Origin: Syntrophus gentianae
GTDB lineage: Bacteria > Desulfobacterota > Syntrophia > Syntrophales > Syntrophaceae
Assembly: GCF_900109885.1 (NCBI RefSeq)
Contig: NZ_FOBS01000003.1
Coordinates: 1 to 64,000 of the forward strand
Reading direction: 5' to 3'
DNA length: 64,000 bases
Below are positions 20,702-41,926 of the stretch, piece by piece (within the stretch, counting starts at the first letter, position 1; the number at the start of each line of letters is the position of its first letter). The position numbers were made by a program, and so were the translations under genes. The notes beneath the pieces are model-generated. The model was given only the letters and a program-made list of their open reading frames with translations. It did no database searches and was not told where the DNA came from.

Positions 20702-20723
20702 GCCTTATCGCAGGAGCGTATCC

Positions 20724-20986
20724 ATGAAAAAGAAAAAGGAATCATCACCTTCAAGGTCAATGCTGATCTGCTGGAGGTCATCAAAAACATACCCAACCGC
20801 TCGGAGTCCATCAGGGAGGTAATCATGACGGCCCTTGAAAATGTCTGTCCACCATGCAACGGGACAGGGATCCTGACGCCGAAGCAGAAGGAGCATTGGC
20901 AGATTTTCGCCCGACACCATACCGTCAAAAAGTGTGAAGATTGCAATAAACTTTTCATCGAGTGTGCCAACACAGAAAATAAGTAA
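20724..20986 (+). pseudogene. Degenerate copy of the ribbon-helix-helix metal regulator
   Basis: The frame GIITFKVNADLLEVIKNIPNRSE, then IMTALENVCPPCNGTGILTPKQKEHW and KCEDCNKLFIEC, is about 80 percent identical to the intact regulator at 38762. The ATG at 20724 is out of frame by one base because of a change in the A-rich start (atgaaaaagaaaaagg). The promoter and operator present at the intact copy are replaced by a DUF89 fragment. It could still be made from an upstream TTG, but is more likely dead. Confidence 0.65.
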
Positions 20987-21015
20987 CGGATCATGAGGAC
21001 TTGCATATGGGGAAA

Positions 21016-21149
21016 CCTTTTTTACCACTGCCGGCCTGGCGATAAGCTATGGACCGGACCTGCCCGCGGGGGCAACTACTATCATCATCACCGGTATTGC
21101 ATGCCGGTTTGTTGTATCAGGGTTGAAAATATTCCGGCTGCGGTGTTGA
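21016..21149 (+). pseudogene. 3-prime remnant of a znuB-type permease gene
   Basis: The sequence aligns with the last ~130 bases of the intact permease at 41486-41615: TTTACCACTG, AGCTATGGACCGGA, GGGGCAAC, ending CGGCTGCGGTGTTGA. The left boundary (about 21016) lies directly after the regulator remnant, so a znuA-znuC-znuB interior of about 2.4 kb has been lost from this second copy. Confidence 0.75.
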
Positions 21150-21321
21150 CGGAATCAATTTATCCTGAGGGTTACGTTCTGTAGAAAGTAGCATTTTTGC
21201 ACCGGTATTTGATATCTTGAGTCGCATACAAGCACTTATGCATTCTGTCATCAGATTCCTTATCTCTAAAAATAACAATTATTAACAATTCGTTAGCCAT
21301 ATTGCTTCAGGCGAGCAATGT

Positions 21322-21574: not shown

Positions 21575-22429
21575 ATGAAAACATCCCTGGATTGCATTCC
21601 CTGCTTTATTAGGCAGGCCCTGGACGTGGCAAGGATGGTAACGGCAGACATCACCGTTCATGAGTGGATTGTCCGCGATGTGCTGCGATGGACCAGCGAG
21701 ATGAATCTCGAACAGACGCCTCCTCTTTTGGGACAGCGCATCCACCGACGGCTGAGGGAGATCACCGGGGTGGAAGATCCATACCGAATCGCTAAAAACC
21801 ATCATAACAGCATGGCTTTGAATCTCCTTCCCGAGTTGAAGGCCGAGATCGACGCCGTGTCGGATCCTTTGATGATGGCCGTTCGCCTGGCTATTGCAGG
21901 GAACATCATCGACATGGGCGTGAACGGAAACTTTGCGGAAACAGATTTGCGGCATTCCATTGACCAGACCCTGGCGGAGCCTTTTTCCGGGGACCAGGAT
22001 GGATTTCGACAAGCTGTTGCTAAAGCCCGGAACATCCTGTACCTGGCCGATAACGCGGGAGAGATTGTCTTTGATCGCCTCCTTATCGAGCAACTTTCAC
22101 CGGAGCGAGTGACATTGGTGGTACGGGGGGCACCTGTCATCAACGATGCAACTATGGTCGATGCACGGCTCTTGAGACTGCATGAGATCGTTGAAGTCAT
22201 TGACAATGGTTCGGATGCCCCGGGCACGATCCTCGACGATTGCAGTCACGACTTCAACCGACGCTTTGCCGAGGCTGACCTTGTTTTTGCCAAGGGACAA
22301 GGCAACTTCGAGACGCTCAGCAATGAAAATCGAACCATTTATTTTCTGTTCAAGGCCAAGTGCCCCGTGATTGCCTCCCATGTCGGTCTACCGGTCGGAA
22401 CTCATGTGCTGGCACAATCCCCTTTGTAA
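21575..22429 (+). CDS. DUF89 (ARMT1-like) metal-dependent phosphatase family protein
   Basis: A 284-residue protein. The start at MKTSLDCIPCFIRQALD carries the conserved C-x2-C of prokaryotic DUF89 proteins. Further motifs are RIAKNHHNSMAL, NIIDMGVN, ILYLADNAGEIVFDRLL (with the metal-binding D-N), RGAPVINDATMVDA, NGSDAPG and ADLVFAKGQGNFETL. Related proteins are cobalt/manganese-dependent phosphatases of damaged metabolites. The gene lies under a sigma-54 promoter and among metal genes. A 27-codon fragment of a second copy lies 0.9 kb upstream. Confidence 0.88.
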   Translation: MKTSLDCIPCFIRQALDVARMVTADITVHEWIVRDVLRWTSEMNLEQTPPLLGQRIHRRLREITGVEDPYRIAKNHHNSMALNLLPELKAEIDAVSDPLMMAVRLAIAGNIIDMGVNGNFAETDLRHSIDQTLAEPFSGDQDGFRQAVAKARNILYLADNAGEIVFDRLLIEQLSPERVTLVVRGAPVINDATMVDARLLRLHEIVEVIDNGSDAPGTILDDCSHDFNRRFAEADLVFAKGQGNFETLSNENRTIYFLFKAKCPVIASHVGLPVGTHVLAQSPL

Positions 22430-33708: not shown

Positions 33709-34086
33709 TCAGTCCAGCAGTCCTTGAATCTGCTTCAGTGTTCTAATTAATATTTCAGCTTCCTTCATGCCGGGTTGTCTCGGCAGTTGCGTCATGATGC
33801 CGAGCCCCTCGCTGGCCTCATGGAATTCTTCAGGGGATAAACTGCTTACAACAGCACAATTGATCATGGGATTGATTCTGAGCAGCCTTTTCGATAACTC
33901 GAGGGCCGTCATGTCTCCCAGGTCTTCATCGGCAACAACGAGATCAACCGTCTTGCTTGAAAGCCTTGTCAGAGCTTCTTCACCGGAGGTCGACATCTCC
34001 AGTTCAATATCGTCTTTTCCGCTTAACGACGAGGACAGGCCTCTTAACGAGTCTTTACTGTGGCTCACCAATAGCAATTTAAGCAT
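33709..34086 (-). CDS. Degenerate response-regulator receiver protein
   Basis: A ~125-residue stand-alone domain; the start at 34086 has GAGG seven bases upstream. The fold is that of CheY receivers (LLLVSHSKDSLRGL, then DLVVADEDLGDMTALELSKRL, then AVVSSLSPEE), but the acidic pair after the first strand is SHS and the conserved lysine region reads LPRQPG. The phospho-acceptor aspartate position is kept. It therefore may not be controlled by ordinary phosphorylation. It is the last gene of the leftward ORP operon, separated from the NifX gene by a strong hairpin. Confidence 0.7.
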   Translation of the reverse strand: MLKLLLVSHSKDSLRGLSSSLSGKDDIELEMSTSGEEALTRLSSKTVDLVVADEDLGDMTALELSKRLLRINPMINCAVVSSLSPEEFHEASEGLGIMTQLPRQPGMKEAEILIRTLKQIQGLLD

Positions 34087-34127
34087 CGCATTCCTCAAAT
34101 CAGCACGTATCAACAATGAAAAACACA

Positions 34128-34166
34128 GGGTACATGGCAATAGGGGAAACCTATTGCCATGTACCC
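34128..34166 (-). terminator. Perfect 17-bp hairpin inside the leftward operon
   Basis: The stem GGGTACATGGCAATAGG pairs exactly with CCTATTGCCATGTACCC around a GGAAA loop, between the NifX stop and the receiver gene start. With no T-run it may protect the upstream mRNA or partly end transcription, lowering expression of the receiver gene. Confidence 0.5.
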
Positions 34167-34197
34167 TTCGCCCGATTCTTCTTGAGCAAGTTCATTC

Positions 34198-38706: not shown

Positions 38707-38741
38707 TTGACAGGTTCAGTATTACTAAGTAATACTGAACC
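38707..38741 (+). promoter_or_regulatory. Promoter overlapped by a perfect 29-bp repressor palindrome
   Basis: TTGACA (38707-38712), 17-base spacer and TAATAC (38730-38735). GGTTCAGTATTAC-TAA-GTAATACTGAACC (38713-38741) fills the spacer and the -10 box with a perfect 13-bp inverted repeat. The next gene, 21 bases away, is a ribbon-helix-helix protein, so autorepression and metal-dependent control of the zinc operon are likely. Confidence 0.8.
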
Positions 38742-38761
38742 AGGTTTTCAGGAGTGCAATC

Positions 38762-39025
38762 ATGAAAAAAAAAGAAGGAATTATCACGTTCAAGGTCAAT
38801 GAGGATCTTTTAGAAATTATCAAGAGTATACCCAATCGTTCGGAGTTCATCAGGGCCGCGATCATGACGGCCCTTGAAAATGTCTGTCCCCTCTGTAGCG
38901 GGACCGGAATGCTGACACCGAAGCAGAAAGAACATTGGGATATATTTGCGGAGCACCACGCGGTAAAAAAATGTGAAGACTGTCAGGAACTGTTTATCGA
39001 GTGCACGAGAGTCGAAAATAAATAA
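38762..39025 (+). CDS. Ribbon-helix-helix regulator with CxxC metal site
   Basis: An 87-residue protein. The ATG follows CAGGAGTG. The N-terminal strand and helices (EGIITFKVNEDLLEIIKSIPNRSEFIRAAIMTAL) are a CopG/NikR-like ribbon-helix-helix. The C-terminal half carries CPLCSGTGMLTPKQKEHW and KCEDCQELFIEC, four to five cysteines with two histidines (EHHAVKK), a good zinc-sensing site. It is upstream of zinc ABC transporter genes and next to a perfect palindrome, so it is proposed to repress the operon when zinc (or nickel) is plentiful. A decayed copy lies at 20724. Confidence 0.85.
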   Translation: MKKKEGIITFKVNEDLLEIIKSIPNRSEFIRAAIMTALENVCPLCSGTGMLTPKQKEHWDIFAEHHAVKKCEDCQELFIECTRVENK

Positions 39026-39103: not shown

Positions 39104-40006
39104 ATGAAAAAGTCCTTTGTAGCTTACATGGTTCTGGTTCTCATGCTTGTTTTCCCGCCGTTGGCCCGGGGGGAGATGGGAAAAACCAAGGTCCCCGTAT
39201 TTGTGAGCATTGTTCCCCAGGCTTATTTCCTTGAGCGAATAGGCGGAAAGCATGTGGATGTGAATGTCCTCATCGGTAAAGGGCAGTCCCCTCACAGTTA
39301 CGAGCCGACACCCAAACAGATGGCGAAGCTTGCCGCGGCAAAGGCCTATTTTTGCATCGGCGTGACCAGCGAAAAAGGGATACTAAGAAAAATCAGGCAG
39401 TCCCACCGGAACCTTCTCATTGTGGAAACGCAGAGGGGGATCGTTTACCGCTATCTTGACGGCCATGATCACGATCACGGTGAAATGCATGGGAAAAGGC
39501 ATTCGGCGGTGGGGGAAAAAGAGCCGGATCCCCATATCTGGATGGATCCTAAACTTGTAAAGATCCAGGCCCGGAATATCCAGGCCGCCCTGGAGCGCCT
39601 GGACCCTGCACACAAGGGGGAATATTCGGAAAATCTGAGAGTCTTTCAGCAGGACCTTGACCGGGTAAATGGAAGAATTGCCCGTTCCCTTGCCCCATTC
39701 AGGGGCAGCAGCATGTATGTCTTTCATCCCGCCTTCGGATATTTTGCCGACGCATATGGACTGAAACAGGTGGCTATCGAGATCGAAGGCAAGGAGCCCA
39801 GTGCGCGGCAACTGGCTGAACTGATCGACAGGGCGAAAAAAGAGCGGGTCAAAGTCATGTTTGTGCAGCCGCAGTTCTCAAGAAAGGGTGCGGAGGCCGT
39901 TGCGAAAGCGATCGGGGGTGTCGTAGTTCCCATCGATCCGCTGGCGCGGGATTATCTTGCCAACTTGGATAGGGTCGCCGCTGCTGTCGAGCAAGGGCTT
40001 CGTTGA
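39104..40006 (+). CDS. znuA: Zinc ABC transporter substrate-binding protein
   Basis: A 300-residue periplasmic protein with signal peptide (VAYMVLVLMLVFPPLARG). Family words: VSIVPQAYFLERIGGKHVDV, GQSPHSYEPTPKQMAKL (first metal histidine), the histidine-rich loop GHDHDHGEMHGKRH, DPHIWMDPKLVK (second histidine) and VFHPAFGYFADAYGL (third), with EPSARQLAELI. The His-rich loop is typical of zinc rather than manganese binders. It follows the regulator gene by 78 bases and overlaps the region of the ATPase start. Confidence 0.9.
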   Translation: MKKSFVAYMVLVLMLVFPPLARGEMGKTKVPVFVSIVPQAYFLERIGGKHVDVNVLIGKGQSPHSYEPTPKQMAKLAAAKAYFCIGVTSEKGILRKIRQSHRNLLIVETQRGIVYRYLDGHDHDHGEMHGKRHSAVGEKEPDPHIWMDPKLVKIQARNIQAALERLDPAHKGEYSENLRVFQQDLDRVNGRIARSLAPFRGSSMYVFHPAFGYFADAYGLKQVAIEIEGKEPSARQLAELIDRAKKERVKVMFVQPQFSRKGAEAVAKAIGGVVVPIDPLARDYLANLDRVAAAVEQGLR

Positions 40007-40017
40007 AAAGAAGAATA

Positions 40018-40761
40018 ATGGAAAAGAATCAAGTTGTTACCTTTCAGGATGTCAGCTTTTCCTATGGAGGGATGCCGATTCTGGAAGATGTGAGTTTCTC
40101 GATTCCGGAACGGACCTTTATTTCCATTGTCGGTCCCAATGCCGGGGGAAAAACGACGCTGTTGAAACTCATGCTGGGTCTTCTGAAACCCTCCAAGGGA
40201 ACGATCGAGGTTTTTGGACAGTATCCCGAGAAGGCGCGCACTCGTATCGGCTATATGCCCCAATATGTTCAGTTTGATCCGAACTTTCCCGTTAGTGTTT
40301 TGGAAGTTGTCCTGATGGGCCGTCTCGGTGCCGGCAAAGGCATGCGAATCGGGCCCTATTCGAAAACGGACAAGGCGATTGCCCTTGAAGCGCTTCAAGA
40401 GCTGGAGATGGAAAAGGCAAAGAACAGACCTTTTATCGTTCTTTCCGGGGGGCAGCGCCAGCGGGTCCTTATTGCCCGGGCTTTGGCTGCCGAACCGGAC
40501 CTGCTTCTCCTGGATGAACCGACGTCCAATGTAGACATGGCAGTGGAAACGGAGCTATTTGAACTGCTTAACTCGATGAGCCAAACCATCACGATTGTCG
40601 TGGTCAGCCATGATCTGGGATTTGTATCCCAGTATGTCGAGAGTGTCGTATGTGTCAATCGTCAGGTCATGATGCACCCCACCACAGCGGTTACCGGCGA
40701 GGTGATCAGCGAATGTTATGGATCCAATATCCGCATGGTGCGGCATAATCACAAGGGCTGA
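40018..40761 (+). CDS. znuC: Zinc ABC transporter ATPase
   Basis: A 247-residue ATPase. ATG 40018 is chosen over an in-frame TTG at 40003. It has Walker A GPNAGGKTT, Q-loop YMPQYVQFD, signature LSGGQRQR, Walker B LLLLDEPTSNVD and switch VSHDLGFVS. The spacing and YMPQ word place it in the MZT (Mn/Zn/Fe chelate) ABC group. It powers the permease encoded nine bases downstream. Confidence 0.93.
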   Translation: MEKNQVVTFQDVSFSYGGMPILEDVSFSIPERTFISIVGPNAGGKTTLLKLMLGLLKPSKGTIEVFGQYPEKARTRIGYMPQYVQFDPNFPVSVLEVVLMGRLGAGKGMRIGPYSKTDKAIALEALQELEMEKAKNRPFIVLSGGQRQRVLIARALAAEPDLLLLDEPTSNVDMAVETELFELLNSMSQTITIVVVSHDLGFVSQYVESVVCVNRQVMMHPTTAVTGEVISECYGSNIRMVRHNHKG

Positions 40762-40769
40762 AAGAAAAA

Positions 40770-41615
40770 ATGATTACTTTCCTTACGGATCTGCCACGAT
40801 ATCCCTTCCTCCAGTACGCCCTTGTTACCGGCATGCTGGTGAGCGTTGCCTGTGGGATAATCGGCAGCTACGTCGTCACCAAGCGTATCACATACATTGC
40901 TGGAAGCATTGCCCATACCGTTTTGGGCGGTCTCGGCGCTGCGCGCTATTGCCAGACGGTCTATAACCTGGAATGGTTTCACCCTCTCTACGGTGCTGTC
41001 TTTGCTGCCCTTGCATCGGCGGTGATTATTGGCGTGGTGAGTATGAAGGCGCGTCAACGGGAGGACACGGTTATTGGCTCCCTGTGGGCCATCGGCATGG
41101 CTGCCGGCATCCTCTTCATTTACAAGACCCCTGGTTACAGCGAAGATCTGATGAGTTATCTCTTTGGAAGCATCCTTATGGTTTCTCCCCGGGACCTCTG
41201 GATGATCGCCGGTCTCGATGCCCTGATCGTGCTCATCAGCGCGCTCTTCTATAACCAGTTCCTTGCTTTGTGTTTCGATGAGGAATTTGCCCGACTCCGG
41301 GGAATCCATGTGGAATGGTATTATCTGTTGCTCCTCTGTCTCACGGCCCTGACGGTAGTTCTCCTCGTCACGGTTGTCGGCATCGTCATGGTCATTGCAC
41401 TGATTACCCTTCCTGCTGCCGTCGCCGGCGAGTTGACAAAGAGGCTATGGCACATGATGGCGCTCTCTACGTTACTGACTCTTCTTTTTACCACTGCTGG
41501 ACTTGCGGTCAGCTATGGACCGGATCTACCGGCAGGGGCAACAACGATCATTATCTCTGGCGTCACATACTTGCTCGTTGTCTGCGGGGTGAGAATCTTC
41601 CGGTTGCGGCAATGA
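40770..41615 (+). CDS. znuB: Zinc ABC transporter permease
   Basis: A 281-residue membrane protein with about eight helices. It opens FLQYALVTGMLVSVACGIIGSYVVTKRITYIAGSIAHTVLGGLGAARY, the conserved start of the ABC-3 family, and has DEEFARLRGIHVEWYYLLLLCLTALTVVLLVTVVGIVMVIALITLPAA, the family coupling and transport segment. The last ~45 codons are repeated as a degenerate fragment at 21016-21149, which shows a second zinc operon once lay there. Confidence 0.93.
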   Translation: MITFLTDLPRYPFLQYALVTGMLVSVACGIIGSYVVTKRITYIAGSIAHTVLGGLGAARYCQTVYNLEWFHPLYGAVFAALASAVIIGVVSMKARQREDTVIGSLWAIGMAAGILFIYKTPGYSEDLMSYLFGSILMVSPRDLWMIAGLDALIVLISALFYNQFLALCFDEEFARLRGIHVEWYYLLLLCLTALTVVLLVTVVGIVMVIALITLPAAVAGELTKRLWHMMALSTLLTLLFTTAGLAVSYGPDLPAGATTIIISGVTYLLVVCGVRIFRLRQ

Positions 41616-41926
41616 CGGAAGATCGCATGGCCAAGACCGGGCATTGCAAAATCGACCTTGGCGCCGGTTCAGGAATAGCTTTTATCTTCTTCCAATGCAA
41701 TCTCCCCCTATTAAGCTTAAGATCAGCCCCGCTGTTTTTGTTTGACACGGAATTCATCCTGTGGCAGGATGTATTTCAATTTCGTAATCAATTCTAACAG
41801 TTATCAAAATTGAACGTCAGCATCTCAACCGTTGGTCATTTCCCGGCAGGCAGGAGGCCGGTTTTCGAGGTTTTCATGGCTCTTTCAGCCATCCACGCCC
41901 CATGCCGGGAATCCTGAGGTGATTTC
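41616..41926. other. Intergenic stretch with an inverted repeat
   Basis: No gene is apparent in these ~310 bases. A short perfect inverted repeat CATCCTG-TGG-CAGGATG (41755-41771) follows a TTGACA hexamer at 41742; no clear -10 box fits the usual spacing, so a promoter with operator is only a possibility. No T-run terminator was seen for the zinc operon. Confidence 0.35.

Follow-up and report, generated by a model that had tools for sequence, protein, structure and literature searches.

The zinc-uptake (znu) operon in the window, by which we mean the whole 64,000-nucleotide stretch of Syntrophus gentianae contig NZ_FOBS01000003.1 that was analysed, is headed by a gene for an 87-aa ribbon-helix-helix (RHH) protein with a Cys/His C-terminal domain. 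The comparisons with related genomes described below indicate that this protein is probably a dedicated repressor of zinc uptake, unrelated to Zur, that would act through the sequence GTAWTAC-N3-GTAWTAC. In most bacteria, control of zinc uptake is the job of Zur, which is unrelated to RHH proteins. The features of the locus, with the evidence for each in parentheses, are as follows.

38707..38712, + strand: −35 hexamer TTGACA (sequence; promoter scan; similar hexamer at orthologous operators)
38713..38741, no strand: perfect 29-bp inverted repeat GGTTCAGTATTAC-TAA-GTAATACTGAACC (sequence)
38719..38735, no strand: putative conserved operator core GTATTAC-TAA-GTAATAC, consensus GTAWTAC-N3-GTAWTAC (comparison of orthologous loci)
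38730..38736, + strand: −10 region, inside the right box (sequence; promoter scan)
38750..38754, + strand: ribosome-binding site AGGAG (sequence)
38762..39025, + strand: 87-aa RHH regulator with C-terminal Cys/His domain, CxxC...H...H...CxxC...C (Pfam; alignments; AlphaFold model)
39104..40006, + strand: znuA-type zinc-binding protein (Pfam ZnuA, 2.2e-70; 1pq4 match)
40018..40761, + strand: znuC-type ATPase (profile matches)
40770..41615, + strand: znuB-type permease, ABC-3 (profile matches)

Promoter, putative operator core and linked transporter genes

A preliminary description of this DNA had read the repeat as a 29-bp operator over a TTGACA/TAATAC promoter. The exact inverted repeat was confirmed over the promoter at 38713-38741, with TTGACA at 38707-38712, and its end lies 20 bases from the regulator ATG (38762). 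The −10 box TAATAC (38730-38735) corresponds to a 17-bp spacer, whereas an 18-bp spacer gives AATACT, which is the closer −10 match in the promoter scan; under either choice, the −10 is contained in the right half-site of the repeat. The extent of the operator had been overstated, because the 6-bp outer arms hold almost no information across 44 loci. The GGTTCA/TGAACC arms are particular to the window's genome, carry no information in relatives, and may be incidental; we therefore rejected the full 29 bp as the operator and retained the inner 17 bp (38719-38735), which are kept in relatives.

A scan of related genomes revealed that this 17-bp core recurs in the promoters of 44 of the 46 orthologous loci examined (the window's own included), with at least 12 of the 14 fixed positions of GTAWTAC-N3-GTAWTAC. 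Matches at 13 or more of the 17 positions were seen in 91% of loci compared with 0.7% of shuffles, and the information profile is limited to the 17 bp and one G immediately before them. The base pairs at the middle of the two boxes vary by genome (T/A, A/A, T/T, or A/T), so that the boxes exist equally as inverted or direct repeats. Further, 25 of the 44 operators have a TTGACA-like hexamer beginning 9-12 bases before their first box, which places the second box over the −10. The footprint is missing at two orthologous loci, in genomes G153 and G149. At the latter (L069, G149:C13), the RHH gene and znuA look frameshifted and the operator looks truncated, which would seem to reflect either joint decay of regulator and operator or poor assembly.

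The RHH gene has orthologues in 19 of the 155 genomes searched within the order and in ∼31 of the 395 genomes sampled from the phylum, a count that leaves out three more matches at E near 1e-4, and one further orthologue lies in a contig labelled Phycisphaerae. This last contig (L010, PWPN01000312.1) carries an RHH-znuACB cassette with the operator 215 bases upstream, and may represent inter-phylum transfer or mis-binning. The RHH regulator is tied to zinc uptake by its gene neighborhood, because the RHH gene lies upstream of znu transporter genes on the same strand in all 46 loci; znuA is found downstream in 40 and znuC in 45. Six loci have an RHH-znuC-znuB arrangement without znuA, and one (in G210) has RHH-znuA without znuC. 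In this G210 locus (L093, G210:C242), the znuA that follows the RHH gene is of another lineage (28% identity), znuC and znuB are both absent, and the RHH operon is convergent with, and adjoins, a NikR-like gene.

The description of a zinc operon behind the regulator held, as znuA, znuC, and znuB follow it in the window. The znuA product has a His-rich loop and the ligand motifs PHSYEP, DPHIWMDP, and FHPAFGYF, with His as the third ligand; manganese-type substrate-binding proteins have Glu at this position. Among solved structures, its nearest relative is 1pq4, a zinc-uptake protein (E=1e-65), and zinc-type ligand motifs recur in most relatives whose ZnuA was readable. Judged by these motifs, the transporter after the RHH gene is of the zinc type. 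The genetic linkage to zinc importer genes and the operator shared among these are features of zinc uptake regulators as a functional class.

Operator copies elsewhere and a decayed second gene copy

Of 39 RHH-positive genomes, 17 contain the exact operator and none the reversed control pattern; the operator is also present in a single one of 30 RHH-negative genomes. In G254, whose znuA has moved out of the RHH operon, this separate znuA is preceded by GTATTACTAAGTAATAC and is divergent from a porin-like gene, and in G455 a stray operator precedes the same porin-like gene. In G322, G206, and G345, the genes downstream of the stray operator encode a small membrane protein and a TonB receptor, and in G499 a stray copy is followed by an outer-membrane-like gene close to a DtxR-type gene. 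The TonB receptors scored best against haem/siderophore receptor models and not ZnuD, so that their role in zinc uptake would be a putative one. A second, exact copy in G499, GTAATAC-AAA-GTAATAC, lies near a contig end (L162 2271, G499:C44) with no clear target and no evident zinc gene nearby, and a TetR-like fragment is found beyond it. No convincing second operator was found in the window's own genome, in which the operon is the sole evident target; a near match within a glycosyltransferase gene was rejected as chance.

The window also contains the remains of a second locus of this type.

20711..20988, + strand: decayed second RHH gene copy (76% DNA identity; ATG out of frame)
21019..21154, + strand: remnant of a second znuB 3' end (75.7% identity to 41485-41620)

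The znuB remnant comprises the last ∼45 codons and lies directly behind the decayed RHH copy. The operator is missing here because similarity begins only at the ribosome-binding site. A fragment resembling gene 22126-22194 sits just upstream of the 20711-21154 remnant.

The RHH protein, its proposed mechanism and the alternatives

The regulator matches Pfam RHH_1 with 20.7 bits, narrowly passing the cut-off of 20.5, and its cysteines are arranged as C42-x2-C45, C71-x2-C74, and C81, which bears out the view of a cysteine-rich RHH protein with C-x2-C pairs. The ITFKV strand (F10, K11) and the NRSxFIR motif of the RHH domain are conserved (16 orthologues aligned; 46 inspected), and the RHH helices are placed at 14-21 and 26-40 by the alignments and the AlphaFold model. 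This AlphaFold2 model, which is of low confidence (pLDDT 64), shows a hairpin and a third helix besides the two helices of the RHH domain, and a fold search with it gave no usable match. The regulator had no Fur-fold (PF01475) match, and Pfam and NCBIfam searches found no ACT-like nickel domain; its identity with NikR was ruled out by its 87-aa length, its Cys/His-rich C terminus, and the absence of the ACT domain. In the C-terminal part, C42, C45, H66, C71, and C81 are kept in all 46 orthologues, and C74 is missing in one.

We propose that the 17-bp core serves as the operator for the RHH protein, whose gene starts shortly after it. The two boxes are each nearly self-symmetric with centers 10 bp apart, i.e. 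one helical turn, so that two RHH dimers probably bind next to each other on the same face of the DNA; the indifference to inverted or direct repeats would be expected if each box takes one two-fold symmetric dimer. The dimers would cover the −10 region and block RNA polymerase, and, because the operator lies over the promoter of regulator-znuA-znuC-znuB, the operon would be autorepressed. The C-terminal Cys/His domain would bind zinc, and the zinc-loaded protein would bind the operator and repress, such that zinc shortage would release the repressor and lead to more zinc import. Within this scheme, we infer that the protein binds the operator, that it represses rather than activates, that two dimers assemble there, and that the effector is zinc.

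It is rather unlikely, but conceivable, that the RHH protein autoregulates through the operator while the zinc of its Cys domain is structural, the signal being redox, manganese or nickel, or protein turnover. Consistent with such a role, there is a weak resemblance between the C-terminal domain and the zinc domains of DnaJ and anti-TRAP, which are structural; a solved-structure profile search gave only weak matches, confined to the zinc-knuckle part. In addition, searches of the open-access literature turned up no RHH zinc sensor. However, the linkage of the RHH gene to zinc-type transporters and the near-invariance of H58, H66, and C81 in addition to both CxxC pairs argue against a purely structural zinc.

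The window's genome also has three Fur paralogs, all away from the znu operon. Two are probably PerR-like because their neighbors are rubrerythrin and catalase genes. The third is Zur-like, adjoins an ArsP_2 permease gene on contig C13 (G000:C13:56271-56703; in L107 3294-4760 the Zur-like gene is followed by this ArsP_2-type putative metal exporter gene), and is preceded by a Zur box, TGCAAATGAGTTGCA, with a single mismatch. Although the genome keeps this protein, whose own promoter carries a Zur box, it is most improbable that it, or some other regulator, controls znu with the palindrome as its site: the GTAWTAC footprint follows RHH genes and not Fur genes, and no Zur box was found at the window's znu promoter, the closest match differing from it at 4 of the 12 fixed positions. 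On account of the absent box, we rejected a role for Zur at the znu promoter of the window.

The preliminary description had held that Zur boxes at this promoter would speak against it, and none were found there, whereas they are present at Zur-linked operons of the same order. In RHH-negative genomes of the order, a Fur-family gene lies immediately upstream in 19 of 30 znuA loci, the Zur-like paralog is the best match for 18 of these 19 genes, and TGCAAC-N3-GTTGCA is present with up to 2 mismatches at 16 of the 19 loci. The Zur site that was predicted for Desulfovibrio has this sequence as its core (PMC545781). A genome of the same genus (G073) has a znu locus of the Zur type. Zur-linked znuABC are only ∼23-38% identical to the window's transporter (an exception, L142, is intermediate, with up to 46%). 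By contrast, the permeases linked to RHH genes mostly share 60-90% identity with one another, indicating that regulator and transporter lineage travel together. The idea that one regulator simply replaced the other on a common transporter was rejected because the Zur-linked transporters are of a different lineage.

The 29-bp repeat occurs once in the 3.7-Mb genome when up to 3 mismatches are allowed, and in order-2 Markov simulations (n=15) inverted-repeat arms were mostly 9-10, with 1 of 15 attaining 14. Because the 64-kb window has three more perfect inverted repeats whose arms reach at least 13, the palindrome is unusual in its length without being singular, and this length by itself proves little; its significance comes from conservation. 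The longest repeat found in the window (34127-34167, perfect, 18-bp arms) sits near the start of the minus-strand ORF 33709-34140. Despite these other long repeats, a chance or structural inverted repeat (terminator or cruciform) without regulatory role is scarcely credible, given that the palindrome has no T-run and lies upstream of the likely transcription start, and this reading of the 17-bp core is refuted by its conservation across families in linkage to one gene family.

Comparison with known regulators

To our knowledge, the known regulators of zinc uptake are Zur of the Fur family and AdcR of the MarR family, and NikR is the only known RHH metalloregulator. We found no description of an RHH zinc-uptake regulator in the open-access literature, and an earlier report in a subscription paper is possible. 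A 2004 reconstruction noted znuABC in some delta-proteobacteria without identifiable Zur or Zur site and raised a possible alternative mechanism for them (PMC545781). The RHH family, which comes with a definite operator and regulon, offers a concrete and testable answer for at least part of these organisms. The shared footprint, the znu linkage, and the absent Zur box support the suggestion that such a regulator would be a class apart from Zur. Accompanied by its own znuACB as a cassette, it may well add another structural class to the bacterial zinc-uptake regulators, in which an RHH repressor with its own Cys/His zinc-sensing site stands in for Zur in several families of the phylum and has a small regulon including znuA, TonB receptors, and porins. 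Control of uptake operons in response to metals is a known kind of regulation, which here would be exerted through the RHH fold; if the proposal is true, zinc-responsive control of uptake arose again in this fold.

The regulator would resemble NikR in being an RHH metalloregulator of a metal uptake operon with a palindromic operator. NikR has a C-terminal ACT-type nickel domain, in place of which the 87-aa protein described here has a Cys/His domain. The NikR operator in delta-proteobacteria is GTGTTAC-N13/14-GTAACAC (PMC545781), with half-sites 13-14 bp apart compared with 3 bp for the boxes of the RHH regulator. AdcR is a non-Fur repressor of zinc uptake, as this protein would be, but belongs to the MarR family (PMC8879271), which is unrelated to RHH proteins. 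Anti-TRAP and the DnaJ zinc domains share a CPxCxGxG zinc-knuckle resemblance but have no RHH domain and are not DNA-binding regulators of metal uptake. MetJ/Arc-type RHH repressors bind adjacent near-symmetric boxes, one per dimer; the boxes of the RHH regulator are likewise adjacent and near-symmetric, but these repressors have no metal domain and differ in box and targets. Finally, Zur has the same job, as proposed here, and the same slot before znuA, and its operator, too, is a short inverted repeat with 3 bp at its center, but its fold is unrelated and its box is TGCAAC-N3-GTTGCA rather than GTAWTAC-N3-GTAWTAC.
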